IMG/VR virus record: IMGVR_UViG_3300029309_000109
Location: 1 to 38,181 of that record
Origin: a virus
DNA: 38,181 nt
Strand: one strand, 5' to 3'
Position 1 is the stretch's first letter; the number at the start of each line of letters is the position of its first letter. The notes below the pieces were generated by a model that had not been told where the DNA came from, did no database searches, and was given only the letters and a program-made list of their open reading frames with translations. Shown here one piece after another: positions 12,942 through 29,337 of the stretch. The translations under genes and the position numbers were made by a program.

Positions 12942-13630
12942 CCGTATCTTTGTTTCATTAACTCGTTTAAAGAACCACCAACAGCCATTTTTTCTATTTG
13001 TTCAATATCGCCACCTAGATTATACTCTGGCATCATTGAACCTCCCCCCGCCATATCTTTAACAGTTTTACCAGTGATTTTTTCAACAACATTTTTATCT
13101 TTTTTAGCAAGAGCTTTAAGACCAGGATTTAGATTATCCATAGATATTTCATTTCCATCAGCGTAACCCATAATATCACCACCGTCTGCGTACATAGGCA
13201 TAGGACCACCTAAGTTCATATTTCTAGGTGCACTACCGCCTATAGCATTCATAATAATTCCTTTTGCTGATTCTAATATTTGTAAAGCAGTTTCTGGATT
13301 ACCTTGTGACCTTTTAACTACTGCATCTGCTAACATTTGTGCATCTTGCCCCGTATCAATAACTTGTTCTTGTTGTAACATTTCAGGTGCTTGGTCTTGC
13401 ATTAATTCACCTGCTTGTCCAGGAAAAGACTCTGGATTAGTTGGACTTCCTATAGGACCACTCTCTATACCCATACCTGCTAACATTTCTCTTGGCACAG
13501 GTGTTTGATTACCTCGCTCTCTAGCTTGTCCAGGATATGATTCAGGGTTGTTGGGTCCTCCTATAGGTCCACTTTCTACACCCATATTTCTTAGCTCATC
13601 TAATTTACTCATTATACCTTTCATAATCAT
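12938..13630 (-). CDS. Late virion-associated protein with duplicated 21-aa motif
   Basis: A 230-aa protein, last gene of the late block. An N-terminal unit beginning MGVESGPIGGPNNPESYPGQ (about residues 16-36) recurs almost exactly as MGIESGPIGSPTNPESFPGQ about 36 residues later. The second half has glycine-rich patches (MYADGGDIMGYADG, MAGGGSMMPEYNLGGD) like those of other proteins in this block. The start ATG at 13630 has AGGAG seven bases upstream. This style of low-complexity Gly/Pro protein in late operons of marine phages is usually structural or ejected. Function not recognised. Confidence 0.6.
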   Translation of the reverse strand: MIMKGIMSKLDELRNMGVESGPIGGPNNPESYPGQARERGNQTPVPREMLAGMGIESGPIGSPTNPESFPGQAGELMQDQAPEMLQQEQVIDTGQDAQMLADAVVKRSQGNPETALQILESAKGIIMNAIGGSAPRNMNLGGPMPMYADGGDIMGYADGNEISMDNLNPGLKALAKKDKNVVEKITGKTVKDMAGGGSMMPEYNLGGDIEQIEKMAVGGSLNELMKQRYG

Positions 13631-13633
13631 AGT

Positions 13634-14554
13634 TTATCTCCTTGGCTTAAAAGCGTTTTGGAATATTCTTGTAGTCATTGTATCACCTTGTTGGCTTTGC
13701 GGCAACCTCATGATTCCTGCATTTAAAGGTCCCCCAAATTTCATACCACCTAACCTTAATCTGTCATCAGGTGGCGGTATTTTAGGTGGTTCATCAGGAG
13801 GAACTTGTGGTGGTTTAATTATTATGGGTCTGTTTATAGGAGCCGTAACAAATCCAGGAGCTTGACCGAATATTCTTGTGCTGACTCCAGGAGAAAGTCG
13901 AATACTTGGAGCACCGCTACTAAAGTCAGTTGGTGGTCTATACATACCTCTAGTAGTAGGTGTAGAAACATCTACAGGAGGAGTCGGTGGTTCATATGGC
14001 GGTGTGTATGGCGGCTCATTTGGCGGTGTAACTGGCGGTGTAAATGGCGGCTCTATTGGTCCATCTCCAGGAGGTCTTGGAGGTCTAAATGGTGGTTCAT
14101 CTATAGGTGGTCTAAATGGTGGTCTAAATGGGGGTTCGTCTATAGGTGGAACAAACGGTGGTCTATCTATGGGCGGAGGTCCATCTATAGGTGGGACAAA
14201 TGGTGGAAAATCATCTATAGGTGGGACAAATGGTGGTTCATCATCAAATATTGGTGGTCTAAATGGAGGTATGTTATCATCAAAAATACCGTCATAGATA
14301 TTATCTATAGGCGGAACGAAAATTTGGTCTTGAAAATCGTCTGGCGGCATACTAGGGGGTTGTATGTTAAAGATGTCTTCAAAAGTATTACCACCAGACA
14401 TAAAATTGTTTTCTATATCGGTAACTTCATTATTAATAAAATCTGCAACATCAGCTTCGTATTGGTCTGTTGCACCCATACGAGATAAATTAGCATCACG
14501 TCTTGCGTTAGCTAATGATAATATTCCGTCTCTGCCTATATCATCGTAAATCAT
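13634..14554 (-). CDS. Proline-rich late protein with PPF-x-PPID repeats
   Basis: A 306-aa protein. An ordinary N-terminal 60 residues is followed by about 130 residues (70-200) dominated by imperfect repeats such as PPFVPPIDE, PPFRPPF and PPYTPPYEPP. A C-terminal region has LRLGGMKFGGPLN and IFQNAFKPRR. The DNA of the repeat zone (about 13980-14320) is itself repetitive. Long proline runs would make translation depend on EF-P. The protein is likely extended and may link or line other virion parts. The start overlaps the upstream stop as TAATG. No known family recognised. Confidence 0.6.
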   Translation of the reverse strand: MIYDDIGRDGILSLANARRDANLSRMGATDQYEADVADFINNEVTDIENNFMSGGNTFEDIFNIQPPSMPPDDFQDQIFVPPIDNIYDGIFDDNIPPFRPPIFDDEPPFVPPIDDFPPFVPPIDGPPPIDRPPFVPPIDEPPFRPPFRPPIDEPPFRPPRPPGDGPIEPPFTPPVTPPNEPPYTPPYEPPTPPVDVSTPTTRGMYRPPTDFSSGAPSIRLSPGVSTRIFGQAPGFVTAPINRPIIIKPPQVPPDEPPKIPPPDDRLRLGGMKFGGPLNAGIMRLPQSQQGDTMTTRIFQNAFKPRR

Positions 14555-17500
14555 TAATAGATACCCCCTGAAATAACTCTATCTATAATTTTATTATCTT
14601 GTATCATAGGAAAATCTACTTCTTCTCTATCTTCTGGAATTTGTAAAGCTCGTTCATATTCGTTATATAATTCATCTTCGCTACCTAAATCTTGATATAT
14701 AACTATACCATAAGAAGACATAATATTAGTAAGTTGGTCATAACTTATTTTACCCTCGTAATATTTTCTATAAGCATCTGCATATTTCTTGTCTAAAACC
14801 ATATAACCTAAATGTGTTCTTGACCTCATACTTTGATTATTTAGGAGAGCGTTCACCCTTCTACCTACAATACTTAAAGGAGCTATCAACATTCTTTGTA
14901 AAAATCTTGCATCTTCTACGTTAGCTCCTTGTTTATACTCATTACCCATAACAGCTCTTTGTACTAGGGGAGTAGGTGCCTGACCTGCCTCTTTTAACAT
15001 CATCTCATTTAATAGTTTCAAATTTTTAACATATTCATCTGCTTCTTTACCTAATAAAGGTTTTATAAAATTATCAAAAGTTAATTGTGGACCGACCATG
15101 TTTTCAGGTCCAAATCCCTTATATAAAAGGTCATCTAATGCAAAAGGGTCGTAAGAATATTGTGCTCCTCTCCTGCCAGTGGGTTTGAGTATTTGTTGTA
15201 ATATATATCTTTTAGTAACATCTGCCATACCCTCTTGTAAAACTGGATTTCTTTTTACTATATCTGAAAAAAACTGTATATCGTTTAATAAAATACCAGA
15301 CTCTTTTTGTGTTCTACCCGCAGATAATATATTTTCTACAATATTAAACATTCTTTCGTCAGGTCTACCTAAATTTGACACACCGAAACGGTTTGTTAAA
15401 AACAATAAATCATCATTCATTCTTTCTAACGGCGTTATAACTTCGTCAATAAATCTTTTAGGTCGAAAAATCGGCACGTCATCGCCATATATAGCTCTTA
15501 AAGTGCCTTTATTTTCTCTAGCAAACTGTCTAAAAGCTGTAGCTCTTTGTAATGAACTTTTAGATGTATCCTCTAAAAGTTCCGCTTCTAAATACCTTGC
15601 TACTCCTAATTGTATTTGTCTTAATTCATCGCCGTTTTCAGCTTTCAATATTCGTAATAAAGGCTCTAATCTAGTATTACTGCTAGCGTTTTTAGAGTTT
15701 GTACTTAAAATATATCTAGCAACATCTTCAGGATTTTTCTTCAAAAGTTCTCTTATGATTTGAGAGTAAGAATCTTTTATAGCCCCTTTTTGTGTTGTCC
15801 ATGCTGTTCTTAAATCTTCACCAAAACCTGATTCTGCTCTTCTACGCATCACTGCTTTCGGTGTAGGGTTAATACCTTCTTTAGTTAATTGTTGTCTAAC
15901 AGCACTATTAATTAACTCGTCTATTTGTCTTTCAAACCCACGCTCTAAATCTCTCGCTAATCTTGAAGCTTTTGGATATTTATCAGCATATCTACTTGCA
16001 AAATCATTTAACGTAACTCTAGCGTCATGTAATTCTCTTAAATTAAAACCTAATTCGTCAGGTCCTGCAAATTTACCTGCTTTATTTTTTGCGGTTAATC
16101 TTCTTAATGTTTCACCGCCATTAGTTCCTAACAATTCATTTAGAACTGCTTTTGCGTCTTTATCACCAAAAGCTTGAAAAAGATTTTCAGATTTTTTACG
16201 TGTTGAATTAATCCATGTTTGTGTGGGTCTTTTTAAATATCCAGCACCAGTTACTAAATCTTGGTATAGTGGATTTGCTAAAGCTTGCTCCATTAAATCA
16301 TTTGCATTAGTCATATATGTATTACGCATTTGATTTAGTCGACTAGTTGTCCTTTGAAACATGGGAGAAGAAGCATTAGGGTCTATTACATCTTTCATTA
16401 AAGCATTACCAGCACTATCTACGGTACCTCCTTGGGGTAAAGCTCCACGTACCTCAGTAATCATATCTTCCATATCTCTTACAATTTTGTCATAATTTTC
16501 TTGTGCCAGTCCACTTAAACCTTTAGATAAATCTGCTGCTGTTACATCTGATGTTGACCCAGCAACTTTAGTAATTAAGTTATTTATAACTTCGTCATTA
16601 CCTAGTTTTATTTGTATAAAAGCTTCACGTAACTTCGGGTCATCAGCGTATTTTAAAAACATAGTTTCTAAATCAGCAGCTTCTATTGTTTGTGTTTGAC
16701 CTGATAATGTTGGGTTGTATTTTTTTAAATCAACTCCCATACGTCTAGCTAATTCTTCAATTTGTCTATTAAGTTCTGCAACACCTTCTACACCATAATT
16801 TATCCCACCCGCAGGTCCACCTATTTCATCTGCTCTAGCTGCTATATACAAATCATCTATTTGTTCGTAAAAAGTATCAGGTACGTCTTTTCCTGTTATC
16901 ATGCCCCAAACTTTTGGTATAACTTGTGCACCTGTGCTAATTAATGCGGTGCCACCAAAACTTAGGGCACCAATCATTCCTGACTCTTTAAAAATATCAT
17001 CAAAATCTCTATCATGTGAGCCTAAAGCCACTCCTAAAGTCATACGTAGAAAATCACCACCTGCAGCACCTGCACCCGATAAAGCAGAAAGTCCTAATAT
17101 TTTTTTACCTTTAGAACGTAAAGTAGGTCCAGACATTCTTAAAGGTCCACCTTTTCTTGTAGCATATATAACTAATCCTGCATCTAATGCTAGTGCGGGG
17201 AATTCTTGTAGCAAAAAATTATACGTATCCTCACTTGTAATAAGTGGACTATTGATTACTTGCCAATCGGCTTCTGGGTTTGGTTTAATAGCTATACCGT
17301 CAGCAGGATTACTAGGATTCATATACATAAATTCAGCCCCTTCCATACCATATTTTTTAGCTAAATGTTCATAATCAGCTGTAGTCATATTACGTGGATT
17401 TAAAGCTCTATCAAAAGCAAAACGTCGACCTGCTTCTAAATCACTGAACTTGTATTCTGCTTGTTTAGTTGCATCAAAACCTAAAGCTGCAAGACGTTGA

Positions 17501-18003
17501 ACTTTTGCTGCAGGAGAAGAATCCCACGAGCCATCAGCCAAACCTACTAAATAAGGCTGTTGTCTCATATCAAGTTCTCTTTGGTCTAATGGGTTATAGG
17601 GTATAAATATACCTTGTTCTTCTTGCTCCCTTATACGAACAGCCTCGTCTGAATTATAAATTCCCATTCTTCTATCATAATCAGGAAAATATTCCGATAT
17701 TTCAAAAGGAATTGGCGGGCGGTCATAAGGTTTTATTCTTTTATTAACATCAACAGCATTAATTAAGTTATTAACACTGTTTAATCCATAAATATTTACT
17801 GCTTCCGCTTTTAACTCTGGACTATAAACTAAAGCTAATGCTTCTAATTCTCTAGGCGATAAAACAGCTCCATAAGTTACGTTTGGGTTTTGAGGTAAAG
17901 TTTTTGCACCTAATTCTTGACCAAGTGCTTCACGTTTTTGGTTATAAAGTTGTTTAGCACTTACCTTTATTCCATTTTCTGTTGTTTGTGTATCGGTAAC
18001 CAT
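14554..18003 (-). CDS. Very large internal virion / DNA-ejection protein candidate (1149 aa)
   Basis: At 1149 aa this is the longest gene in the window. It is mostly charged and helical. There is a moderately hydrophobic Gly/Ala-rich stretch around residues 300-365 (LGLSALSGAGAAGGDFLRMTLGVALG, then GALSFGGTALISTGAQVIP), which could insert in membrane. Size, helical content, a central amphipathic zone and the late position next to other Gly-rich proteins match internal core or ejection proteins of podoviruses (T7 gp15/gp16-like in role). I see no transglycosylase or peptidase motif. It is coupled to both neighbours by TAATG junctions. Confidence 0.55.
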   Translation of the reverse strand: MVTDTQTTENGIKVSAKQLYNQKREALGQELGAKTLPQNPNVTYGAVLSPRELEALALVYSPELKAEAVNIYGLNSVNNLINAVDVNKRIKPYDRPPIPFEISEYFPDYDRRMGIYNSDEAVRIREQEEQGIFIPYNPLDQRELDMRQQPYLVGLADGSWDSSPAAKVQRLAALGFDATKQAEYKFSDLEAGRRFAFDRALNPRNMTTADYEHLAKKYGMEGAEFMYMNPSNPADGIAIKPNPEADWQVINSPLITSEDTYNFLLQEFPALALDAGLVIYATRKGGPLRMSGPTLRSKGKKILGLSALSGAGAAGGDFLRMTLGVALGSHDRDFDDIFKESGMIGALSFGGTALISTGAQVIPKVWGMITGKDVPDTFYEQIDDLYIAARADEIGGPAGGINYGVEGVAELNRQIEELARRMGVDLKKYNPTLSGQTQTIEAADLETMFLKYADDPKLREAFIQIKLGNDEVINNLITKVAGSTSDVTAADLSKGLSGLAQENYDKIVRDMEDMITEVRGALPQGGTVDSAGNALMKDVIDPNASSPMFQRTTSRLNQMRNTYMTNANDLMEQALANPLYQDLVTGAGYLKRPTQTWINSTRKKSENLFQAFGDKDAKAVLNELLGTNGGETLRRLTAKNKAGKFAGPDELGFNLRELHDARVTLNDFASRYADKYPKASRLARDLERGFERQIDELINSAVRQQLTKEGINPTPKAVMRRRAESGFGEDLRTAWTTQKGAIKDSYSQIIRELLKKNPEDVARYILSTNSKNASSNTRLEPLLRILKAENGDELRQIQLGVARYLEAELLEDTSKSSLQRATAFRQFARENKGTLRAIYGDDVPIFRPKRFIDEVITPLERMNDDLLFLTNRFGVSNLGRPDERMFNIVENILSAGRTQKESGILLNDIQFFSDIVKRNPVLQEGMADVTKRYILQQILKPTGRRGAQYSYDPFALDDLLYKGFGPENMVGPQLTFDNFIKPLLGKEADEYVKNLKLLNEMMLKEAGQAPTPLVQRAVMGNEYKQGANVEDARFLQRMLIAPLSIVGRRVNALLNNQSMRSRTHLGYMVLDKKYADAYRKYYEGKISYDQLTNIMSSYGIVIYQDLGSEDELYNEYERALQIPEDREEVDFPMIQDNKIIDRVISGGIY

Positions 18004-19712
18004 TAGTCGTATAAATTAGTTATATTATTTATATCTCTAGTAATCTCATCATCTAAAACGTTTTGGTCAATAATCGCATTTGGATTAGTGGGGATTCCTG
18101 TTTTTCTTGGATAATATTCTTTATTAAAAGGCATATTTTTATATTGGTCGAAAATCTTAATACCTTTGTTATAACTTCTTTCTGTAAACGGAACAAACTC
18201 ATAAGCATTTACATTTGCAAAATCATAATCTTCAGTACCTTCTATTAAGGGTGGTTTATAAAAATCGGTTACTAAAGATAGTCCTGTTTGATTATTTGTT
18301 CGATGAAGATGTCTTATAATATTAGGACCTACACGTCTACGTGTTTCTAATTCAAGACCATTTAGCATTTGGTCAGTAACTCTTAATAAATTATGGTATG
18401 CAACATTAGCGTCTTGTGTTGCACCAAAACCTACGATTTGTAAATGATACGCTAAATCTTTATCAGATAAAGTTCTTCCTGTTTGACCATTCATAGCAGC
18501 TAACATATAAGCCATTTGTAAAAAGTTTGCTTGTTGTGCAACATTTTGGAAAGCTGTTGGTCCTACTTTATCCATAAAAGTTTTCTTATACGAAGGTTGT
18601 GTTTCCATTAAAGTATTAAAAGCTGAATTTAATGCTGCTTCTGCTTCAGGGTCGTCTGGATTAGCTTGATATCTTTCTAAAGCTTTAAATGTAATTTCGG
18701 CGTTTACACCTGTGCCTCTTGTTAAATCTGAACCACCACCATTTTCATCTTTAGAAAAAATAGCGTATATATCATCTTGACCTGCTCCATATTTTTGACC
18801 AAAGAAAGACGCGATTTGTTTAAAGTTAGCTCCCATGCTATTAGCAAAATTTGCAATATCTGCTACAGTAGTTATACCTGATTTAGAAGGGTCTTCTATT
18901 GCCTTGTACAACATTTCAAGTTGAGGTATAGCAATATTTAAAAATTGTGTAGCAGCAATATCTTTGTTTTTTATTTCGTCGTAATCTTTGAAAAACTCTG
19001 TAGATATATTGTCTTTCATTGCACTTCCAGAAACACTATCTGCATCAATATACCTTATCCAATTTTCTCCTGCTAATTGTTCCTCTCCGTCATCGTTAAT
19101 TAAATATGCTTGTCCTGGAGTGTCACCTTTAGTATAGTAAAATCCAGGCTTGATTATAGTTACTCCACGATTTCGTAGTGCGTCTGTATCTAAAAGATTT
19201 AAAAACGTTGCTGTTCCTTGTTCTTCTTTTAAAAATTCTTTAATTAATTGTCCTCTAGCTTTATTTATATTTACATCTCTAGTATCTTCTGCTCCTCTTA
19301 ACGATATAGCTGTTCTAGTGTAATCGGGTGCACCTCTACCCATTTGTGAAGCTGCTATTAAATCAACTACATCCATGCCTCTAAAACCTCCTACATCTTT
19401 TTGTGGACCATAAGCAGCATAGGCAGCACCTAAAGCTTTTTCTTCTTTAGAAAGATTTTCAGGGTCAGCTCCTATACTCTCATAATACTCACTAGGAGTT
19501 AAAGTTTTTTGGTTTCTTTGAAACAGTCCTGCTATACCACGAGGTATAAAAGGCAGTAGTCCAGCAATCTTTTCTTGAGTTGTTGGTTCAGGTGGTCTAC
19601 GCAATGGTGGTCTAGCGGTAGGGAAAGAGGGTCTTGCTTGTGTTATTTGTATAGGTTGTATACCTGCTATTCCTTGTTTACCGCCGAATGTTGGAAATGG
19701 TGTAAATTTCAT
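18003..19712 (-). CDS. Late virion protein, probable internal or tail component (569 aa)
   Basis: A 569-aa protein. The N-terminus is Pro/Arg-rich (RPPLRRPPEPTTQEKIAGLLPFIPRGIAGLF), with a short amphipathic or hydrophobic helix. The rest is globular and charged, with no catalytic motif. Segments such as GYDFANVNAYEFVPF-like aromatic patches are not diagnostic. It lies between a Gly-rich 366-aa protein and the giant 1149-aa protein and is coupled to the latter by TAATG, suggesting they assemble together, perhaps as ejected proteins. Family not recognised. Confidence 0.55.
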   Translation of the reverse strand: MKFTPFPTFGGKQGIAGIQPIQITQARPSFPTARPPLRRPPEPTTQEKIAGLLPFIPRGIAGLFQRNQKTLTPSEYYESIGADPENLSKEEKALGAAYAAYGPQKDVGGFRGMDVVDLIAASQMGRGAPDYTRTAISLRGAEDTRDVNINKARGQLIKEFLKEEQGTATFLNLLDTDALRNRGVTIIKPGFYYTKGDTPGQAYLINDDGEEQLAGENWIRYIDADSVSGSAMKDNISTEFFKDYDEIKNKDIAATQFLNIAIPQLEMLYKAIEDPSKSGITTVADIANFANSMGANFKQIASFFGQKYGAGQDDIYAIFSKDENGGGSDLTRGTGVNAEITFKALERYQANPDDPEAEAALNSAFNTLMETQPSYKKTFMDKVGPTAFQNVAQQANFLQMAYMLAAMNGQTGRTLSDKDLAYHLQIVGFGATQDANVAYHNLLRVTDQMLNGLELETRRRVGPNIIRHLHRTNNQTGLSLVTDFYKPPLIEGTEDYDFANVNAYEFVPFTERSYNKGIKIFDQYKNMPFNKEYYPRKTGIPTNPNAIIDQNVLDDEITRDINNITNLYD

Positions 19713-19723
19713 AAGCTATCTAA

Positions 19724-20824
19724 TCAATAAGTAATATTTCCAGGAAATCCGCCAAATCCTGGTCCAAATCCTGGTCCAAATCCTGGTCCAAATCCTGGAA
19801 ATGGGAAATTTCCTATGCCGCCAGGAGGCATTCCTGTTGGTGGTGGTGTTCCTGTTGGTGGTGGTGTTCCTGTTGGCTGTGGTGTTTGTTGAAAAGGTAA
19901 AGACATATTACCTACGCCTGTAAATGTTGGTGAAAAACTGTTAGGTGTATACGCTGTGCCTGTTGCAGGTGTAGCTCCTGCATAACCGAAACCACCCGCT
20001 AACGGTCCAAGAGAGGCGGTTAACGAACCAAGATTCTGTACTAATTGCATAGGTAAATTATATTGACCTGTAAAGTTTTGGTATGCTAAATCCATTAACG
20101 ATTGACTTCTACCTCTGCCTAAACCACCAAGACCCATAGTTCTGCTTATATCTTGTCCTTGTAATGCGGGAAGGGTTTGTGCTAAATTTTGAAAATTTCT
20201 GCCTAACCCTGCTAATGCACCCGCACCTTGTAAACCCCTACGTTGGGCTTGTTCGAATGCATTTGATGCAAGTTGCGAAGCTTGACCAAAACCACCACTT
20301 CTTATTTTACCGACTGCTTCTGATGCACCTCTACCTACTTGCCTAGCTAATTCATTTTGTGCTATACGACCTCTAGAGCCTCCGAAAGCTCCTTGACTAA
20401 CAGCTCTATCACGTAAGCCTATATCTGATTGTGCAAATCCTCTATTAATATCTTCTAAAGTTTGGTCTACAACCGCATCTTCAAAAGGATTATAAAATTG
20501 GTCAATCATGTTTGGGTCGAACTGTCCCGTGCTACCACGAGTCATAGCACCCGCTTGGTTTAATAAATCTGCAGAAGCACCTAAATAAGGTCTGTAACTA
20601 CCGATAGCACTATCAGATAATTGCATAGCTAATCGTTCTCTAGGGTCGAAATCAGCTACCCTTTGTCCTGTATAAGTAAAAGGTGAGCTATCTTCCCTGC
20701 CTAAATTAGCAAATTGGTCTCTAAAAAATTCTGTCGCAGTAGGGAATAAAGTTTGTGATAATAAATTACCTATATACCCTGCGGGGGCTTGACTGGAATA
20801 TTCTTGTTCTTCTCTACTAGCCAT
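19724..20824 (-). CDS. Late virion protein with collagen/elastin-like C-terminus
   Basis: A 366-aa protein. The middle (about residues 95-190) has FYNPFEDAVVDQTLEDINRG and SQGAFGGSRGRIAQNELARQ, a signature I associate with conserved structural or internal proteins of marine phages. The C-terminus is low-complexity: three PTGTPPP-type units, then GFGPGFGPGFGPGFGG. The DNA there has a 12-bp unit repeated almost four times and an 18-bp unit three times. Its first eight bases overlap the upstream stop. Probably virion-associated; exact role unknown. Confidence 0.6.
   Translation of the reverse strand: MASREEQEYSSQAPAGYIGNLLSQTLFPTATEFFRDQFANLGREDSSPFTYTGQRVADFDPRERLAMQLSDSAIGSYRPYLGASADLLNQAGAMTRGSTGQFDPNMIDQFYNPFEDAVVDQTLEDINRGFAQSDIGLRDRAVSQGAFGGSRGRIAQNELARQVGRGASEAVGKIRSGGFGQASQLASNAFEQAQRRGLQGAGALAGLGRNFQNLAQTLPALQGQDISRTMGLGGLGRGRSQSLMDLAYQNFTGQYNLPMQLVQNLGSLTASLGPLAGGFGYAGATPATGTAYTPNSFSPTFTGVGNMSLPFQQTPQPTGTPPPTGTPPPTGMPPGGIGNFPFPGFGPGFGPGFGPGFGGFPGNITY
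19754..19798 (-). repeat. 12-bp tandem repeat (3.75 copies)
   Basis: The plus-strand unit AAATCCTGGTCC occurs at 19754, 19766 and 19778, plus a nine-base partial at 19790. It encodes the GFGP repeats of the 366-aa late protein. Copies are identical, so slippage could change the repeat number between relatives. An 18-bp unit (CCTGTTGGTGGTGGTGTT) is repeated nearby at 19833-19886. Confidence 0.9.
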
Positions 20825-21611
20825 ACATTCTATTTCCTTTATTATTTATTTTGTTAAGTTTTGATATACCTTTACTATGATTACCGTTACCTAACATGTC
20901 TACTGTAGCTTTAGATAACATAAACTCACCATCACTAGCCATTATAGGTATCAAATCATCTTTGGGTCCTCCTGGACCGTCAAGTTCTCCACCACCTAAC
21001 ATAGGTTTAAACATTTTTCTATCTAGAACGCCACCGCCTTCCATACCTATAGGGTCGAACTGAAGCCGTCTTCTATTAGCATTGCCTGCAGGTAATGTTC
21101 GTGTAGATACTTGACTGCCTGGTCTTTCTTCTCGTCTTTGTAATAAAGCACTAAGTATACCGCTAAACCCACCAGTTAAAGCATTTTGTAAATCAGCTAA
21201 ATCTTCATTACCATATATTTCTGCTAATATTCCTCTCAAACCTTGTGGCATAGTATTTAAAGTATCAAATATACTTGATATACCACCGCCATCATTATAC
21301 TTAGGTACCATACCGCCTCCATACATGCCCATGATACCTTCTGGGTATTGTTGTAACAATTCCATCAACATTTCTTCATCCATATTAGATAAAGAACGAC
21401 CTTCTTGTCCTTGCGATGCTTCTTCAGGTGCTTTAGCTTGGGTACCTAAAATTTCTTGTATTTCTAAAGGAATACCTGAATCTAAAGAAGGTGCAGTACC
21501 AGCCCCAATCACACCTTTTTGTTTTGGTGCTCGTTTACGTGCTATTTCATTAGCAATGACGCTGCCTCCAACGCCAACCAAAGCAGCTATTACAGGTACG
21601 GGTATAGGCAT
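20817..21611 (-). CDS. Late virion-associated Gly-rich protein (phage GPGGPKDD-IP-SDGE motif family)
   Basis: A 264-aa protein. It has an N-terminal hydrophobic helix (VPVIAALVGVGGSVIANEIA), a Met/Gly-rich centre (GMYGGGMVPKYNDGG), and a C-terminal block GELDGPGGPKDDLIPIMASDGEFMLSKATVDMLGNG. This last block is a recurrent motif in structural or internal proteins of marine phages. The ribosome site AAAGGAG precedes the ATG at 21611. It follows the cyclase gene after only 27 bases, so the curli/cyclase cassette is embedded between late genes of one transcript rather than appended at a block end. Confidence 0.6.
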   Translation of the reverse strand: MPIPVPVIAALVGVGGSVIANEIARKRAPKQKGVIGAGTAPSLDSGIPLEIQEILGTQAKAPEEASQGQEGRSLSNMDEEMLMELLQQYPEGIMGMYGGGMVPKYNDGGGISSIFDTLNTMPQGLRGILAEIYGNEDLADLQNALTGGFSGILSALLQRREERPGSQVSTRTLPAGNANRRRLQFDPIGMEGGGVLDRKMFKPMLGGGELDGPGGPKDDLIPIMASDGEFMLSKATVDMLGNGNHSKGISKLNKINNKGNRMYG

Positions 21612-21638: not shown

Positions 21639-23372
21639 TCAAAAAGTATATATTATTAAAGGTTTTTCTTTACCTTTTACTTTTATAGGTTTTACTGATT
21701 TTAAATGATGACCACAATATTTTTCAGTTTCTTCACCTATTAGTATATTTACACCTGCTTCTTTTGTAGCCGATTCTAGTCTAGCGGCAGTATTTACAGC
21801 GTCTCCGATAGCACTATAATCGAATCGAGTATCGCTACCCATATTACCAATTACAGCTTCTCCTGTATTTACACCAACACCAATAGCTACGCCTATATCA
21901 GCTTTTTCTATATTTTCCTGTATTTCTTTAGCACATTCTACAGCCACCTGTTCATGATGCGGTAAATCTAATGGTGCATTAAATATTGCCATCATTGCAT
22001 CACCAATATATTTATCTACCATACCGTTGTATTTTTTCACTGCATCAGATTGTATTGTTAACGCTTTATTCATAATTTCTGTTACTTGTTCTGGTTCTAG
22101 TTTTTCAGATAATGCAGTAAACCCCCTAACATCAGTGAATAAAAAAGTACATCTTCTTTTTTCTCCACCTAGCTTTAATAAATCAGGGTCTTTTTGTAAG
22201 CGTTTTACTTGTCGTGGGTCTAAATAATGTTCAAACTGTTTTTTAATTTGTAAACGTAATTTATATTGTTCTCTGAATCTAAGGTAAAAAGCTATGCTAC
22301 CTGAGATAAACTGGCTTATTAAAGACCAAGTAACGTCTATTAGAACACCTGTACCTATCGTATACGCCCCGTATAAGCCCGTTAAAGCCATAGTTAATAA
22401 ACCTAAGGTTACGCCCCAAGTTATTCCTAAATAGCTTATAAACGCCCATATTAGTCCCACAGATATTAAAAATATAAATAGTTCTACAGATAAAGCGTAA
22501 TCGGGTATATAAGGGCTATCTTGTATTAATATAGATTCTGCAAGTGCAGCTTGTATTTTATGTGGCTCAACTAACCCAACAGGCGTAGCAATCTGCGGCA
22601 TCACCCCGTTAGCGGTAACACCAACGAATACAAACTTACCATTAACATTCATTTCTTGTAAATCTGTTTCTTCTGTTTTTACCCATGATATCCATTTACG
22701 ACCAAAACTATCTGTTTTTACTGGCGGCAATCCTCTAACCGCTATCTCTTGCACACCGTTATCATTAGTGGTGATTATATAAGTAGGTGTTCCAGTTAAT
22801 GTTTTTAATACTTGCGTTCCGAACGAAGCTGACCAACCATCAGGGTTTTTTAATAATAGAGGGATTCTTCTGACAAGTTGGTCAACCTCTGTAGGTGCTA
22901 TTGCAACACCTTGAACTATATCGTCGTATGTGTAATAGTTTTGTTTTATACCAGAAGAAGGTATTCCTCCAACATCTGGTCCTTTAATAACTGTTCCTGT
23001 AGTTTTAGGAAATATACCGCTACCGTTTTCAAAAGTAGCTAAAACACTTGGAGCATAGGTTAATGCACTACTAAAACGTGCGTCTCCTCCCATTCTATCT
23101 GCTTGTGGGAAACTTATAACCCAACCTACTCCCATAGCACCTGCTCCTAATAAGTTTATTTGTATATCAGCTAGACGTTCTCTAGGTAATGGATAACCTC
23201 CTTCTTTTTCTAAATCTTCTTCAGTAATGTTTAATATTACAAAACTACCGCTAGGTTCTGGTGTTTCAATAAATGCATCAAAAGTTTTAAGTTTTAATAT
23301 TTCTGTCGGTGTGCTTTGAAATATTAAAGGAACAGCTAATAAGGGTAATAATATAAATATAAGTTTTTTCAT
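21639..23372 (-). CDS. CHASE2-domain class III nucleotidyl (adenylate) cyclase
   Basis: A 577-aa membrane enzyme. An N-terminal helix (1-19) is followed by an exported CHASE2 sensor region (about 25-285), three membrane helices (about 294-312, 316-338, 345-364) and a cytoplasmic class III cyclase (about 400-577). Catalytic features are complete. FTDVRGFT gives metal Asp414, and DKYIGDAM gives base-selecting Lys454 and metal Asp458. YSAIGDAVNTAAR gives Ser520 at the second base-selecting position, plus transition-state Asn527 and Arg531. This supports ATP as substrate and cAMP as product. FecR plus CHASE2-cyclase pairs are common in bacteria; here the FecR gene overlaps by ATGA. A phage-encoded copy is unusual. 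Confidence 0.93.
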   Translation of the reverse strand: MKKLIFILLPLLAVPLIFQSTPTEILKLKTFDAFIETPEPSGSFVILNITEEDLEKEGGYPLPRERLADIQINLLGAGAMGVGWVISFPQADRMGGDARFSSALTYAPSVLATFENGSGIFPKTTGTVIKGPDVGGIPSSGIKQNYYTYDDIVQGVAIAPTEVDQLVRRIPLLLKNPDGWSASFGTQVLKTLTGTPTYIITTNDNGVQEIAVRGLPPVKTDSFGRKWISWVKTEETDLQEMNVNGKFVFVGVTANGVMPQIATPVGLVEPHKIQAALAESILIQDSPYIPDYALSVELFIFLISVGLIWAFISYLGITWGVTLGLLTMALTGLYGAYTIGTGVLIDVTWSLISQFISGSIAFYLRFREQYKLRLQIKKQFEHYLDPRQVKRLQKDPDLLKLGGEKRRCTFLFTDVRGFTALSEKLEPEQVTEIMNKALTIQSDAVKKYNGMVDKYIGDAMMAIFNAPLDLPHHEQVAVECAKEIQENIEKADIGVAIGVGVNTGEAVIGNMGSDTRFDYSAIGDAVNTAARLESATKEAGVNILIGEETEKYCGHHLKSVKPIKVKGKEKPLIIYTF

Positions 23373-24484
23373 CCGCTACTTTGTCTTATGGTAATAGTAG
23401 AATCACCACCACCATTTATTTTTATTATATTAGAAACACCGTCTTGTATCAAAATGACTGTATAACCTGCACCAGAATTTAAGTCGACCTGCACTGACTC
23501 ACTGACTTTCCTACGTAAACTTACAGTTTGCCCTGTTACTATTGTTGTTATTTGTGTATCAGAATCTTGTCCTAATAAAGTTCCTGTTATATTTATACCT
23601 GTAGCTAACGCTAACTGGTCTTCCTCATCTTCTATAGCTAAGGCATCAAGAACATTTAATAAATCTTCTAAAAAGTTTACATCTAAATAATTAATATCTA
23701 ATTCTGTAAATTCTAAACTATTATCTTCTAAGAAATCTTCTGCTAAATAATCTATATCTAAATCATTAAAATCTAATAGATTTACTGTTTTAGTGCTTGC
23801 CGTTTCTTCTTGTAAAACATCGTCTTCTTTAGGTGGAGATACTATAAGCATATTATCAATAATATCTAGTGATAAATCTAATACTACAGGTTTACTGGGT
23901 GCGTTTTCAAAAACATCTACAGTTGTGGCTTGATAAGGTTTATTTAATAAAACACTGCCTGTTGCTGTTACTACTTCTATCTCGCCACTAGATAGCCCTA
24001 ATGCGTCAGGTAATAAAATTATTAAACTACGACCTAGTTCATCAACCGTAGCAGTGAAATCAGTGCCTCTAATCGCAATATTTGCAGTAGGGGTGCTAAG
24101 TTTTATATTTTGTTTATCTATACGATTAAGATTTCCCGTGATAAATCTCGCTGTACCTAAAGCAAAGTTAAGGGACATTTTAGACTTACTCGGGTCTGGG
24201 TCATAGATATACTCATCTATGAGGAGTTGAGAATGTTCAGTAAGTTTGACTATCGATTTATCTAAAAAAGTTATAGCCATACGACCATTAGTAGTTATAG
24301 CTTCATCATTGCTTTGTATAGCAAATTGTAGATTAGCGTCGTAAGGTTTATCTCTTACTATTTGAGCAGAGCCGTTTAGTTCAGATATATCTCCGATATC
24401 AACAGCTTGTGCTTGTGCCTTGGTCGTTTTGAATGACACAGACAGTACCACTATTACCGCTAGATAGAATCTTGAGCCAGTCAT
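23369..24484 (-). CDS. Exported FecR-domain protein with C-terminal curlin-like repeat
   Basis: A 371-aa protein. A signal peptide (1-25: Arg5, hydrophobic core, AQA cleavage site) leads to a FecR domain (about 30-190) with the core TPTANIAIRGTDF (131-143). Then comes an acidic repeat zone (236-290; DFNDLDIDYL, TELDINYLDVNFLEDLL), and a C-terminus reading ILIQDGVSN then STITIRQSSG (343-371). That end matches the Q-x-G-x-x-N spacing of curlin repeats. FecR proteins normally sense or relay signals in the periplasm. Here the tail suggests contact with the curlin encoded just upstream. The first 86 bases are overprinted on the curlin gene's end. No clear ribosome site is visible, so translation may be coupled. 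Confidence 0.85.
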   Translation of the reverse strand: MTGSRFYLAVIVVLSVSFKTTKAQAQAVDIGDISELNGSAQIVRDKPYDANLQFAIQSNDEAITTNGRMAITFLDKSIVKLTEHSQLLIDEYIYDPDPSKSKMSLNFALGTARFITGNLNRIDKQNIKLSTPTANIAIRGTDFTATVDELGRSLIILLPDALGLSSGEIEVVTATGSVLLNKPYQATTVDVFENAPSKPVVLDLSLDIIDNMLIVSPPKEDDVLQEETASTKTVNLLDFNDLDIDYLAEDFLEDNSLEFTELDINYLDVNFLEDLLNVLDALAIEDEEDQLALATGINITGTLLGQDSDTQITTIVTGQTVSLRRKVSESVQVDLNSGAGYTVILIQDGVSNIIKINGGGDSTITIRQSSG

Positions 24485-25103
24485 TATCTAATGTGCTTGA
24501 TTGTGTAATATTAAAAGTTCTAGAATTACCTGTTTGGTCTAAATAAAAATAACCTCCCGCGTAACCAGAACCTGTAAAATTCACAGTATTACTATCTCCG
24601 TCTACGTCTACATAAGAAGTGCCGCCGTCATAATTTATATCGAAATCAAAAGTATTGCCATCGCCTTGTATAATCCAATCTAAATCTAATGTTGCAGCTA
24701 ACGCAGTTGTTCCATGGTCTAATGTAAAAGTATTTGTACTACCTGTAACATCTACATTGTAGTTAGAATTATCAATGCCATAAGTATTCGTTGGGTCGCC
24801 TTGTATAGTAAAGGTATTACTATCGCCATCAAATTCAAAAAATCCAGTAATAGAATCTCCTAAGATATCGCCTAAAAATTTGTTTGTATCTCCTAATTGA
24901 TTAATATCGAGAGTTAAAGAAATACCGTCTAAATCTAGAGCGGTCAAAGAGCCTGCAGAAGAATTCAACCCTCCGATTATATTACCCGAACCAAGCTGTT
25001 CTAAATCAATATTAGCTGTTGCACCTGATTGGTCTACATATATTTCGTTATCAGCAGAAAAAACAAATGTTGAAGTTAATAATAAACTAATTAATATTTT
25101 CAT
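24399..25103 (-). CDS. Curlin-like (CsgA/CsgB-type) secreted amyloid subunit
   Basis: A 234-aa protein with a clear signal peptide (1-16, ending FVFS before ADNE). The rest is Gly/Asn/Asp/Thr-rich beta sequence with degenerate curlin units: VDQSGATAN (23-31), LEQLGSGN (34-41), INQLGDTN (67-74), FDGDSNTFTIQGDPTN (91-106), VTGSTNTFTLDHG (119-131), IQGDGNTFDFDI (145-156), VDGDSNTVNF (167-176), LDQTGNSRTFNITQ (188-201) and the terminal unit with VIQNDQG. Consensus curlin is S-x5-Q-x-G-x-x-N-x-x-x-x-Q. Units are longer and more acidic than in E. coli CsgA. Cys222 and Cys234 near the end are not typical of CsgA. The ribosome site GGGAGGT is excellent. The CsgG gene immediately upstream supports the assignment. 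Confidence 0.82.
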   Translation of the reverse strand: MKILISLLLTSTFVFSADNEIYVDQSGATANIDLEQLGSGNIIGGLNSSAGSLTALDLDGISLTLDINQLGDTNKFLGDILGDSITGFFEFDGDSNTFTIQGDPTNTYGIDNSNYNVDVTGSTNTFTLDHGTTALAATLDLDWIIQGDGNTFDFDINYDGGTSYVDVDGDSNTVNFTGSGYAGGYFYLDQTGNSRTFNITQSSTLDNDWLKILSSGNSGTVCVIQNDQGTSTSC

Positions 25104-25908
25104 CGATTACCTCCCAGAAACCTTTATCATACCCTATTTTGACGATTTGCAAAACAGCCTCTTCAATAGCTCTTTGAAGAGCCAATGTAGCAGGTTCATT
25201 TTCAGCATCTCCCGTTTCAATTTCGACTAGTTCTGTGCCTGCTTCTATAAACCTAAATACATCTTGCGATTGTCCATAACTATATAATTGTTTACTTACT
25301 AAAACATCTATTAAAACTTCTCCTGTTGCTACAGATACCATACGTAAAGCTACTGTAATATTATCTACTCGATACTGTTTACTTGTCCCTATTCCTAAAT
25401 ATCTAGCCCCTATACCTCCGCTTTTAATATTTGTATCAAAACCTATAACAGCTCCCTCCATTAAAACACCTGCAAAAAGTAAGGGCATAATAGGTTTAGG
25501 TCCATCAGTTTTTTCGTTTTGTTCTCTAGCAGAACGTATAAGTTGTCTTTCCTTAGTAAGATTGTCTAAACCTACTCTTTCAGCAACTCTAAAAAATTTT
25601 CCGTCAGCTGTGTGTTTTAAACTTCTAATAAGTAGGTGGCTTGGTGCTTGTGTAAGTGCTGTAGAAAACAATGCAAACTCACTATTACTTTTACGTTGAC
25701 CTGTTTGGTCTGTAAAACTATTAGGGTATACGGCAACAACGATAGGTGCTTTAGGTTGTGCTACGTTTAATAAATCTTTAGATTGAATTTGTAAAATAGT
25801 CGGTAAAGTTTTACCTTGTTGTAATGTAGTATCTACAGGAGCTAAACTGCAACTAGAAAGAAAAATCGCCAACAGGCAACTGTATCTCTGTAATATTTCC
25901 ATCAGCAT
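25087..25908 (-). CDS. csgG: CsgG-like outer-membrane curli secretion pore lipoprotein
   Basis: A 273-aa protein matching CsgG along nearly its whole length. The lipobox LSSC puts the lipidated cysteine at Cys20. Then come APIVVAVYPNSFTDQTGQRK, FSTALTQAPSHLLIRSL, RVGLDNLTKERQLIRSA, EGAVIGFDTNIKSGGIGARYLGIG, a VALRMVSVATGEVL strand and VFRFIE near the end. CsgG forms a nonameric barrel that exports curlin. In ungapped alignment the constriction loop (74-83) keeps Phe81 (Phe56 in E. coli), but Tyr51 and Asn55 become Ser and Leu, so gating may differ. Two ATGs (25908 or 25902) are possible. Either way the signal sequence overlaps the csgF-like gene's end by at least 50 bases. Confidence 0.93.
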   Translation of the reverse strand: MLMEILQRYSCLLAIFLSSCSLAPVDTTLQQGKTLPTILQIQSKDLLNVAQPKAPIVVAVYPNSFTDQTGQRKSNSEFALFSTALTQAPSHLLIRSLKHTADGKFFRVAERVGLDNLTKERQLIRSAREQNEKTDGPKPIMPLLFAGVLMEGAVIGFDTNIKSGGIGARYLGIGTSKQYRVDNITVALRMVSVATGEVLIDVLVSKQLYSYGQSQDVFRFIEAGTELVEIETGDAENEPATLALQRAIEEAVLQIVKIGYDKGFWEVIDENIN

Positions 25909-26341
25909 CAGTTATCTTGAGAGTTATGATTCCATTTTCAATACTATATTCTATAGTGTTTCCCTCTAGGGTCAAAGTCCCTTCTGTGCTAGGTGTTTCA
26001 CCAAATAAATTTTCTACTAATTGTCTTGACAGTTGAGCATAGATACGTGATTCAAGATTCCTTATAAATCTAGCTAATGTAGTATTTTCTTTATCTCTTT
26101 CTATTTGTTCCTGTATAGCTTTTATTTCTTCTTTAATACTCATCTTACGATTAAACTCTTGGTTTTCAATAGTTAAATAATGTGATGAAGTATTAATACC
26201 GTTAAAAGAAGGGTTTTTAAATTTATGAACTATTTGGTCAGCCCATAAAGAATTAGTTAAGAGTGCAAGAAAAAAGAAAATACAGAAAAATCCTGCAATT
26301 CTATATATCCAAATATTTTCGTTAGTCTTTTCTTTGGTCAT
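25853..26341 (-). CDS. csgF: CsgF-like curli assembly protein
   Basis: A 162-aa exported protein. The signal segment (about 10-34, IYRIAGFFCIFFFLALL, cleavage after LWA) is followed by DQIVHKFKNPSFNGIN. This matches the CsgF N-terminal helix (F-x-N-P-x-F-x-G) that inserts into the CsgG channel. A charged helical middle (66-112) leads to a C-terminal half ending NGIITLKITDADGNITEIQLPVG, the same pattern as the end of E. coli CsgF. Gene order csgF-csgG with a 56-base overlap (50 if CsgG starts at its second ATG) supports a paired pore complex. The start overlaps the holin-like gene's end by 20 bases. Confidence 0.85.
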   Translation of the reverse strand: MTKEKTNENIWIYRIAGFFCIFFFLALLTNSLWADQIVHKFKNPSFNGINTSSHYLTIENQEFNRKMSIKEEIKAIQEQIERDKENTTLARFIRNLESRIYAQLSRQLVENLFGETPSTEGTLTLEGNTIEYSIENGIITLKITDADGNITEIQLPVGDFSF

Positions 26342-26672
26342 GTCTTTTTGCTTTAGCTATTTTACTACTGTCTATCAAGTTTGGCACTCCAAGTATAGTC
26401 TTAATTAAAGTATCTTGTCTAATTATTTCATTATCTAAACTACGTATTCTATCTATTAAAGCTACTAAAATACCATGTTGTGTATCTAATTTAGTGCCTA
26501 ATCTTTCCTCGATAGCGTTTATTTGACCTGCTACTTTTTCGTCAACAACATCTAATTTTTGTTCCATGCCATCAACAATACGTATAACTAATTTATATAT
26601 AAACCAACCAAGACCTATGGCTGCTGCTATGGGAAACCCAACTTCTTGTATAAGTGTTACAGCTTGTTCCAT
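26322..26672 (-). CDS. Single-helix membrane protein, holin-like candidate
   Basis: A 116-aa protein. One membrane helix lies near the N-terminus (about 11-31, VGFPIAAAIGLGWFIYKLVI), followed by a long charged coiled-coil region (35-90) and a basic tail (KIAKAKRHDQRKD). One-helix proteins with a cytoplasmic coil, encoded close to an endolysin, often act as holins, but membrane scaffolding is also possible. The frame is open one codon further upstream with TTG, but the ATG at 26672 follows GGGGTGAT and overlaps the nuclease stop as TGATG, so it is the better start. It directly precedes the CsgF/CsgG genes. Confidence 0.5.
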   Translation of the reverse strand: MEQAVTLIQEVGFPIAAAIGLGWFIYKLVIRIVDGMEQKLDVVDEKVAGQINAIEERLGTKLDTQHGILVALIDRIRSLDNEIIRQDTLIKTILGVPNLIDSSKIAKAKRHDQRKD

Positions 26673-27052
26673 CAATAATCACCCCAAACCTTAGTTTTCT
26701 TCCCACCGTCGTATACTACAGCATGACCTTCTTTAATTAAAACATCGCATATATCTCTACCGTCTTCTGTATATGGTATGCCTAGAATACGACCATATTT
26801 ACCTTTACCTAAAGATTTGACCTGTATTTTACCAATACATAATTCTTTCAACCTTGCTTTAGCAGCAAGACCTAAAACCTTTTCTGCTTTGTCTCTAGTC
26901 CTACTTTCTGGTGTATCTATGCCTGCAAGTCTGACACGCTGTTTATGTAGCTTAACATCAAACCCTAAATCTAAGGTACAGTCAAAAGTATCGCCGTCGA
27001 CTATACGTTCTAATGTTGCATTATATACAAATGATTCTGGTGCTTTAGCCAT
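26672..27052 (-). CDS. Thermonuclease (SNase)-like nuclease
   Basis: A 126-aa protein of the staphylococcal nuclease fold. Visible motifs: RIVDGDTFDCTL (calcium-binding Asp), RVRLAGIDTPES (catalytic Arg, then Asp, Thr, Glu) and GKYGRILG (second catalytic Arg), then a C-terminal LIKEGHAVVYDGG. All key residues are present. There is no signal peptide, so it probably acts inside the infected cell or in the virion, perhaps degrading host DNA or RNA. It follows the basic protein cluster (TAAATG junction) and precedes the holin-like gene. Confidence 0.9.
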   Translation of the reverse strand: MAKAPESFVYNATLERIVDGDTFDCTLDLGFDVKLHKQRVRLAGIDTPESRTRDKAEKVLGLAAKARLKELCIGKIQVKSLGKGKYGRILGIPYTEDGRDICDVLIKEGHAVVYDGGKKTKVWGDY

Positions 27053-27340
27053 TTAACACTTCCATCTTCTTCTAGCTTGTCTTAATCTTGAGTTAGGGTT
27101 TTTTGCAGCTTTAGGAAATTTTTTCATCTGACCTGCAGAACGTGCACAAAAAGATTTACGTCTTTTTGCTGCTTTACTACCTTTTTTAACTTTACCTGTT
27201 ACTGCTGTTTTTAATTTACTTCCAGGATTCATACGTCTGTACGCTTTAACTCCTGCTGCAGTCATACCCGCACCTTTTTTAGTAGGTCTAAAATTCTTTT
27301 TATTTCTTTTAGGCATTTTAGCTTTTTTTCTTTTTGGCAC
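27053..27340 (-). CDS. Small basic phage protein (GVKAYRRMNPGSKLKTAVT family)
   Basis: About 95 aa, very rich in Lys/Arg. It has GVKAYRRMNPGSKLKTAVT, KGSKAAKRRKSFCARSAGQM and NSRLRQARRRWKC, a combination found in a conserved family of small phage proteins (I believe Pfam DUF6321). The frame is open to a TTG at 27361. The GTG at 27340 lies right after a perfect AAAGGAGG and is preferred; an ATG at 27316 is a further option without a ribosome site. It ends the basic cluster, with TAAATG before the nuclease. Confidence 0.75.
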   Translation of the reverse strand: MPKRKKAKMPKRNKKNFRPTKKGAGMTAAGVKAYRRMNPGSKLKTAVTGKVKKGSKAAKRRKSFCARSAGQMKKFPKAAKNPNSRLRQARRRWKC

Positions 27341-27623
27341 GTGTCCTCCTTTTTTTAACAAACGTTTTTACGTTAGTTGGTTTACCTCCAGGATTTCCTG
27401 CAGCTCTTTTTCTTTTTACTGCACTCCTACGCTGTGCTGGTGTCATACTTTTAGCTTTGCTTCGTGGAACACATTTAGGATATCCACGTTTACTTTTACC
27501 TTTAGCAGATTTTCTACCACATTTTTGAAACTTACCTTTTTTCTTAGGTGCACCTATATCTACCCAATCACCTTTTGGACCTTTACCGAACCAAGCAGTT
27601 AAACCGCCACTAGGTTTTGCCAC
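27318..27623 (-). CDS. Small basic phage protein (WFG-KGDWVDIG, CGRK-YPKC family)
   Basis: A 101-aa highly basic protein. It begins with SGGLTAWFGKGPKGDWVDIGAP, then CGRK...GYPKC (possible metal site), then SAVKRKRAAGNPGGKPTNVKTF and a poly-basic end. The arrangement is recurrent in phage and some viral proteins of unknown function (possibly DUF5872; not certain). The start is GTG at 27623 inside the previous gene's last codons (GTGGCAAAACC then TAG), a 14-base overlap. DNA binding or packaging is plausible from charge only. Confidence 0.72.
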   Translation of the reverse strand: MAKPSGGLTAWFGKGPKGDWVDIGAPKKKGKFQKCGRKSAKGKSKRGYPKCVPRSKAKSMTPAQRRSAVKRKRAAGNPGGKPTNVKTFVKKRRTRAKKKKS

Positions 27624-28570: not shown

Positions 28571-29014
28571 TTATTCTCCTTTTAATACTCTATCTCTTAA
28601 TCTTATCGCACGGGGTCCTACTTGTGTAGCCCAACGACTATCCATCATTTCAACTGCAGCAGTTTCCCAATCATGTTCTTCTAACGCAGCTAAAAACTTT
28701 TTAAACTTTAATAATCGGGTAATACCTAAATTAAAACACATATTTGCTAATACTCTTTGTATATCTTCAGGTAAATGTATCCACCATTTTAAATTTCTAT
28801 CTAATTCAGTAGTAACTATATTCATATCTTTTTCAAAACATTCTTTTATTCTATCTTCAGAAACAGGGGTATCTACGTCTTGACCATGTTCAGGGTCTGA
28901 TTCTAATATTAAATGACCTATACCAAACGTAGGGTATCCAAGGTGGTCTAAATAAATTTTATCTATACAGCCTTCATCAAAAATTAATTCTTGTCTTAAT
29001 TTATCTATATTCAT
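28571..29014 (-). CDS. T4-type lysozyme (GH24 endolysin)
   Basis: 147 aa from the preferred start. It begins MNIDKLRQELIFDEGC and continues KIYLDHLGYPTFGIGHLI. The T4 catalytic triad is clear: Glu in DEG, Asp in YLD, Thr in PTFGIGH. Downstream, LANMCFNLG, FKKFLAALEEHDWETAAVEMMDS and GPRAIRLRDRVL are typical. The frame is open to 29131, but the ATG at 29014 overlaps the upstream stop (ATGA) and gives the normal family N-terminus. It lacks a signal peptide, so it needs a holin or another route to the periplasm. It cleaves peptidoglycan glycan strands. Confidence 0.92.
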   Translation of the reverse strand: MNIDKLRQELIFDEGCIDKIYLDHLGYPTFGIGHLILESDPEHGQDVDTPVSEDRIKECFEKDMNIVTTELDRNLKWWIHLPEDIQRVLANMCFNLGITRLLKFKKFLAALEEHDWETAAVEMMDSRWATQVGPRAIRLRDRVLKGE

Positions 29015-29337
29015 AATATCTTTACTGTCGTAGACCCTCCAGTTGAAACGGTTATTTTTCCTAGAGATGTCGTCCCTTGTAATCCTTTTTCTTCTCCAAC
29101 GTATAAATCTATCCATTCGTTTCCATTCCATAACTGTAACTGATTTGTGCTTAAATTAAAAATTATAGTCCCTTCAACAAATTTGTTCAAATTTCTTTGT
29201 GTTTCATTTACTAATAATGTAGCGTCAATATCTATTGAGTTTAAAGATAATTCTAAAACTCTTACTAACCTATTAAAAAGTGCAGGGTCAACAGGTCCTG
29301 TCGCTTCAGGTAATTTGGTTTGTAGTAATTTAGACAT
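29011..29337 (-). CDS. Small tail-associated protein, hypothetical
   Basis: A 108-aa protein. The N-terminal half looks helical (DPALFNRLVRVLELSLNSID); the C-terminal half has FNLSTNQLQLWNGNEWIDLY, a short beta motif common in phage tail or fibre accessory proteins, then a Gly/Thr-rich end. It is coupled upstream to the 629-aa tail protein (TAATG) and downstream to the lysozyme (ATGA). A structural role is inferred from context. Confidence 0.6.
   Translation of the reverse strand: MSKLLQTKLPEATGPVDPALFNRLVRVLELSLNSIDIDATLLVNETQRNLNKFVEGTIIFNLSTNQLQLWNGNEWIDLYVGEEKGLQGTTSLGKITVSTGGSTTVKIL

Follow-up and report, generated by a model that had tools for sequence, protein, structure and literature searches.

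A phage-borne curli-type secretion module with a FecR protein and a CHASE2 cyclase in an HTVC023P-type pelagiphage contig

Curli-type secretion genes, i.e., those of the type VIII secretion system (T8SS), have been described in phages. The sections of Zaragoza-Solas et al. (2020) on these genes contain the first report of phage CsgF and CsgG, together with the idea of "sibling capture" (PMC7029224). Wittmers et al. (2022), in the passages that deal with the module, describe it in nine HTVC023P-type podophages and, by hidden Markov model (HMM) searches, in pelagimyophages, with the order "HK" (histidine kinase), CsgF, CsgG, CsgA/B, FecR, sometimes a second CsgA/B, and adenylate cyclase, and they report expression of module genes at sea (PMC9599517). 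A superinfection block, clumping, and timed opening of the cell envelope have already been proposed as uses in the relevant parts of these and a third paper (PMC9599517, PMC7029224, PMC9004378). Here we analyse such a module in the viral contig record IMGVR_UViG_3300029309_000109 (38,181 bases), the whole of which is referred to as the window. Five overlapping minus-strand genes at 21639-26341 encode CsgF, CsgG, a curlin-like subunit, a FecR-domain protein and a CHASE2 class III cyclase, as a preliminary description of this DNA had claimed; the open reading frames (ORFs) lie at that place, with CsgF, CsgG, FecR and the cyclase recognized by Pfam and the curlin through its family. These gene identities also support its view that a phage cassette adds its own curlin-like subunit, FecR and cyclase; its further statement that no such cassette had been described fails, because the same module is reported in the passages of Wittmers et al. 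cited above.

The module belongs to a kind already published, and the phage that carries it adds one more member to a known group. The window DNA polymerase is matched best by that of phage 023Pt_psg01 (53%) and then by that of Pelagibacter phage HTVC023P (49%), and the order of structural genes and helicase is common to all three, so the phage is classed as an HTVC023P-type pelagiphage; its host, judged from the phage type, is probably SAR11. On balance, and with modest assurance, we favour the reading that this is a phage-borne T8SS module with a fibre, a FecR sensor and a cyclase, and that it alters the surface of the infected cell.

Parts, recurrence and relatives of the module

The genes, in their order of transcription, are as follows.

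26322..26675, minus strand: small membrane protein, 117 amino acids (aa); overlaps csgF by 20 bases
25853..26341, minus strand: CsgF, exported CsgG cap, 162 aa (Pfam PF10614, E 7.3e-18)
25087..25908, minus strand: CsgG outer-membrane secretion pore, lipoprotein, 273 aa (Pfam PF03783, E 4.2e-48)
24399..25103, minus strand: curlin-like secreted subunit, 234 aa (Curlin_rpt matches in the family, PDB profile match, AlphaFold model)
23369..24484, minus strand: exported FecR-domain protein, 371 aa (Pfam FecR, E 4e-10)
21639..23372, minus strand: inner-membrane CHASE2 plus class III adenylate cyclase, 577 aa (Pfam CHASE2, 3e-22; Guanylate_cyc, 2e-20)

Overlaps of 56 bases (CsgF/CsgG), 17 bases (CsgG/curlin), 86 bases (curlin/FecR) and 4 bases (FecR/cyclase) agree with the tight coupling noted in the preliminary description, and the genes look like a single transcription unit. 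CsgF is 41% identical to CsgF of the cultured phages HTVC008M and Melnitz. CsgG has the lipobox LSSC, is 44% identical to HTVC008M CsgG, and its profile matches the solved E. coli CsgG in the PDB (E 1e-101).

The curlin-like subunit has degenerate QxGxxN repeats and a C-terminal Cys pair, with no N22-type spacer before the first repeat. Its family is assigned to curlin because Curlin_rpt is matched by 22 of 27 homologues (best E 9e-10), because the family profile matches the solved curlin 8c50 (E 1e-7), and because the same profile, run on bacterial loci, selects exactly csgA and csgB in the E. coli locus. The AlphaFold model of the window protein is all-beta (pLDDT 82, pTM 0.79). A conserved extension with Cys (..CVIQNDQGTSTSC) terminates podophage curlins, whereas those of myophages end in IxQSD; a disulphide or covalent link through the Cys extension is conceivable.

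Recurrence was assessed by running profiles of the module proteins over viral contigs and counting only loci with enough flanking DNA. The order CsgF-CsgG-curlin-FecR is present in 125 of 125 such viral loci, the cyclase in 123 of them, and all 65 podophage-type loci carry the same order. Recurrence of the five-gene order, which the preliminary description had left to profile searches, extends as CsgF-CsgG-curlin-FecR(-curlin)-cyclase across podophage-type, myophage-type and further viral contigs. Many podophage-type loci also share flanking genes, with SNase upstream and genes for a 264-aa protein and an ejection-type protein downstream. Median ratios of nonsynonymous to synonymous substitution (dN/dS) per gene range from 0.044 (curlin) to 0.095 (cyclase), which points to strong purifying selection on all module genes. 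Chance and contamination are excluded as the origin of the gene set, because the order holds in 65 of 65 podophage-type loci, the flanks are shared, and dN/dS is 0.04-0.10. CsgG and curli are typical bacterial genes and a Hyphomonas chromosome has a related five-gene set, which would suit host contamination or a chimeric assembly, yet the same junctions stand in tens of metagenome contigs, guanine-cytosine (GC) content is even across the module, the podophage CsgG belongs to a phage-specific clade, and the cultured phages HTVC008M and Melnitz carry the module. Contamination is refuted by this recurrence and has a vanishingly small probability in our judgement, in agreement with the preliminary description.

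Viral contigs of up to 337 kb (L273-L322) also carry the module, with CsgG 45-54% identical to that of Melnitz. About half of them are without the small membrane protein, and some have T4-like replication genes, so the module appears to extend beyond the known pelagiphages. The T4-like genes near the module in some of these contigs encode a gp32-type single-stranded-DNA-binding protein or a primase-helicase and UvsX homologues. Because a terminase scan (PF03237) of outlying contigs gave a match in only 1 of 28 records, their viral nature was judged by such neighbours, which cover part of them; for the others it rests on the IMG/VR label.

Bacterial relatives were sought among the 80 nearest bacterial CsgG loci. 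FecR and cyclase occur together in two of them, on a Hyphomonas chromosome and on a contig of a Pelagibacter metagenome-assembled genome (MAG). Recurrence in bacterial chromosomes only, which had been named in advance as evidence against a phage cassette, is therefore not what was found, one of the two being a phage contig. This Pelagibacter-MAG contig (L324, 14.6 kb) has the full module and is read as misbinned phage DNA because it also encodes a terminase small subunit and a polynucleotide kinase. It would make SAR11 look CsgG-positive; CsgG was not found in seven other genomes of the genus. The chromosomal locus of Hyphomonas sp. TMED17, a divergent form of the set, has the order CsgF-CsgG-curlin-FecR-cyclase (FecR E 2e-61); unlike the viral modules it has ordinary chromosomal flanks (TonB receptors, acetyl-CoA hydrolase), it is without the small membrane protein, and its FecR is without a Q-ending tail. 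A FecR profile search of 385 Alphaproteobacteria found nothing near this strength (next best E 8e-33), and a search of 249 genomes of the Hyphomonas order found no other match of that strength. In the CsgG tree, a 100/99 branch separates all viral sequences and Hyphomonas from 26 other bacterial CsgG; podophages and the Pelagibacter-MAG contig form one clade, and Hyphomonas stands on the viral side on a long branch with unsure placement. A 1.5-kb record named Salmonella phage S.Kent 1-2-1 (OR851715) contains an unannotated enterobacterial-type CsgG, ~40% identical to that of the window, which is probably host DNA in a phage record.

FecR tail, small membrane protein and cyclase

In viral FecR proteins the signal peptide is followed by a FecR domain and, after an acidic linker, by a C-terminal segment that closes with [IV]x[IV]xQ plus 0-4 residues. 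The window FecR has an N-terminal signal peptide, no later transmembrane segment by hydropathy and no second Pfam domain, and its model resembles the PupR periplasmic cell-surface-signalling domain 6ovk (E 1.9e-4). The whole signal peptide is encoded in the 86 bases (24399-24484) at which the FecR gene overlaps the curlin gene's 3' end; in Melnitz the two genes share 23 bases, in HTVC008M none. Counted as [ILVFM]x[ILVFM]xQ at the C-terminus, the Q-ending motif is present in 198 of 199 distinct viral FecR, which is no independent test as the motif was spotted in an alignment whose sequences are part of the larger set used for the count. Independent tests are provided by background ORFs, with 22 matches in 1578 (1.4%), and by complete bacterial FecR, with none in eight. 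The ending is common to FecR and curlins: it was found, with a slightly relaxed pattern, in 124 of 132 myophage-group curlins, and E. coli CsgB has the C-terminus AIRVTQR. The last CsgB repeat is described, in the passages on it, as degenerate and linked to CsgF binding (PMC10192328).

In the window, the FecR tail YTVILIQDGVSNIIKINGGGDSTITIRQSSG (residues 341-371) forms a full QxGxxN curlin repeat that scores 21.5 bits with a matrix from 789 bacterial curlin repeats, a score reached by 0 of 1000 shuffles. Outside the window's clade FecR tails keep only the flanking hydrophobic/Q pattern, and the full repeat seems to have decayed there. The preliminary description had made its account depend on curlin-type repeats in both the 234-aa protein and FecR; the former has them, and FecR has a single one, confined to its C-terminus. 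Because the window FecR has this full repeat, it probably contacts the fibre or the CsgF-CsgG gate. Such a proposed contact between FecR tail and fibre machinery is new relative to the passages on the module in the earlier papers. The window has no second curlin gene as a CsgB nucleator, and the FecR tail is a candidate stand-in. We propose only tentatively that FecR is a phage-special, fibre-coupled sensor, whose tail docks or threads into the fibre or gate while the cyclase turns secretion or surface contact into cyclic AMP (cAMP). If so, the phage would sense its own fibre or neighbouring cells, in a host mostly without known cAMP receptors.

An open outer-membrane channel for uptake of nutrients or cofactors, with FecR as an iron-related regulator, has also been suggested in the parts of Zaragoza-Solas et al. 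(2020) and Wittmers et al. (2022) that treat the module. The FecR domain itself, the resemblance to a siderophore-signalling domain (PupR), and the failure to find the CsgE gate in the window record are consistent with this, but an uptake channel could work without the secreted repeat subunit that is always encoded. Moreover, FecR is without an anti-sigma part or transmembrane segment and has a curlin-type tail, and the annotated window genes include neither a sigma factor nor a TonB receptor or any other partner for FecR. We regard an uptake channel as quite improbable.

The small membrane protein that overlaps csgF has a single N-terminal transmembrane segment by hydropathy and a C-terminal coiled coil, and its homologues have ~100 aa. 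Its gene appears to be the one that Wittmers et al. call "HK", an identification made by position and copy number. Pfam found no kinase domain (HisKA or HATPase) in the window protein or its eight homologues (nine in total), which, together with its shortness, speaks against a role as histidine kinase. PDB profile matches, including one to a histidine kinase/Gcn4 fusion near the C-terminal end, were set aside as coiled-coil noise. The gene adjoins csgF in 65 of 65 podophage-type and 25 of 25 myophage-type loci, in one or two copies before csgF, and is in the neighbourhood, sometimes in the other orientation, in 16 of 35 other viral loci. Within the phage collection the protein occurs only in phages that carry the module, and we class it simply as a partner in the module rather than as an established kinase or holin.

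The cyclase matches adenylate cyclases in a PDB profile search (E to 4e-31). Practically all of 173 homologues keep the metal-binding residues D414 and D458, the substrate lysine K454 and R531 of the transition state; N527 is kept in most of them, and S520 replaces Asp/Thr. Because the catalytic residues are conserved, the phage protein is very probably an active adenylate cyclase. A transcriptional circuit, in which FecR, a histidine kinase and the cyclase would control the module through cAMP/CRP-type regulators as in enterobacterial csgD control, is considered in the module passages of Wittmers et al. (2022). The linked cyclase with its intact active site fits this proposal, but the putative kinase is too short and is without HisKA or HATPase, the overlapping genes look like one transcription unit, and only 5 of 118 SAR11-family genomes, which may be incomplete, have a cNMP_binding domain. 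A CRP-type cAMP receptor in the SAR11 host is unlikely given this rarity, and we give such a circuit very little credence.

Setting in the phage genome

The module sits in the late region of the window. The flanks are those of a phage, as the preliminary description had it; among the proteins encoded there are DNA polymerase, primase, tail spike, virion proteins, lysozyme and an ejection protein. Upstream are genes for lysozyme, small basic proteins and SNase, and downstream is one for a DNA-ejection-type protein. By overall synteny with HTVC023P and 023Pt_psg01, the module is flanked by a virion-protein gene on one side and the helicase on the other; a clean empty site against these two phages was not obtained because genes at 12938-21611 are too diverged. 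Two neighbours bear on what follows.

28571-29131: phage lysozyme, ~2 kb upstream of the module
26672..27052, minus strand: SNase-type nuclease (Pfam SNase, E 2.5e-14)

In the sections of Buchholz et al. (2022) on Melnitz, a pore for lysis timing is proposed (PMC9004378), and in this form the CsgG/CsgF pore would be a timed, secretin- or pinholin-like opening of the envelope that aids lysis at a moment set by the signalling genes, curlin being secondary. The late position, the nearby lysozyme gene and the small membrane protein adjoining csgF suit such a role. Against it, all 125 loci retain curlin and FecR, which are constrained as much as the pore; the HTVC008M module lies at 7.5-13.8 kb with endolysins at about 141-143 kb; and in the phage collection no phage without the module had the small membrane protein. 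Holins act at the inner membrane, whereas the CsgG pore lies in the outer one. Lysis timing is thus an unlikely main function in our view.

In most podophage-type loci, though not in myophages, the SNase gene adjoins the module; it is probably podophage-clade context outside the module proper. Two very basic small proteins encoded at 27053-27623, one of them DUF6321, have 65-82% identity to HTVC023P and 023Pt_psg01, far above what most of the late region shows; they are possible candidates for DNA condensation. At 3157-5087, thymidylate synthase adjoins a 5-hydroxymethyldeoxyuridine (5-hmdU) DNA kinase-type (HMUDK_hel) protein; the two form a pair for hypermodification of DNA bases that is reported for HTVC023P-type clades V, VIII and IX.

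Proposed working and comparison with known systems

In the secretion-module reading that we favour, CsgG would form an outer-membrane pore late in infection with CsgF as its cap, and Sec-exported curlin-like subunits would pass through CsgG/CsgF and assemble on the infected cell. FecR, with its signal peptide, no transmembrane segment and no anti-sigma part, would be periplasmic, and its C-terminal repeat could touch the fibre or the CsgG/CsgF gate, as is thought for the last CsgB repeat. CHASE2 of the inner-membrane cyclase may read FecR or the state of the envelope and so lead to cAMP. The most likely benefit would be a modified infected-cell surface that gives superinfection exclusion or aggregation of neighbours; this is the most plausible use, and lysis timing and uptake are less well supported.

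Several points weigh against this reading. Taken alone, the window curlin falls below the Pfam cut-off for Curlin_rpt (E 0.039), and a fold search of the PDB with its model gave no significant match. The full QxGxxN repeat of FecR is confined to the window's clade and elsewhere scores little or nothing, and model confidence for the FecR tail is low. CsgE (PF10627) was not found in the window record, itself a fragment. In E. coli, CsgE is a periplasmic factor that is helpful, not strictly required. The rarity of cNMP_binding in SAR11 leaves the cAMP branch without an obvious receptor. Finally, clumping was not observed with Melnitz, a phage that carries the same module, according to the passages on it (PMC9004378).

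More broadly, a fibre-secretion module absent from the hosts themselves, the most abundant ocean bacteria, is present in their phages and is maintained by strong selection in several phage lineages. The FecR/curlin C-terminal signature, the supposed histidine kinase without a kinase domain, and the scarcity of host cAMP receptors narrow the question to the FecR-fibre contact and cAMP. The FecR tail and the finding on the supposed kinase are the part worth pursuing.

Compared with known systems, the pelagiphage module in the passages of Wittmers et al. has the same genes, order and phage type as the window. Two differences concern interpretation: their "histidine kinase" corresponds here, by position and copy number, to a ~100-aa coiled-coil protein with a single transmembrane segment and no kinase domains, and they placed podophage genes within the myophage branch, whereas podophages form a separate clade in our CsgG tree. 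HTVC008M (gp014-gp019) and Melnitz (gp99-gp104) have homologues of CsgF, CsgG, the curlin-like subunit, FecR and the cyclase in the same order at ~32-47% identity. Two copies of the small membrane protein precede these modules and, unlike in the window, a second gene with curlin repeats separates FecR from the cyclase; at the C-terminus, FecR of both phages retains the Q-ending pattern but not QxGxxN. The Melnitz record MZ577097 annotates two curlin-associated repeat proteins, and the relevant part of the Melnitz paper states that csgA/csgB are lacking. FecR/PupR anti-sigma regulators have the periplasmic FecR domain in common with the window protein, together with a transmembrane helix and a cytoplasmic anti-sigma region, both of which the window FecR lacks. 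No CsgC or CsgD is reported for viral modules in the module passages of Wittmers et al. (PMC9599517). Relative to E. coli curli (csgBAC/csgDEFG), CsgG of the window is 41% identical, CsgF is homologous, and the viral curlin profile finds both CsgA and CsgB; the window is without a CsgE match or an N22-type spacer, and to the curli parts it adds FecR and a CHASE2 cyclase.

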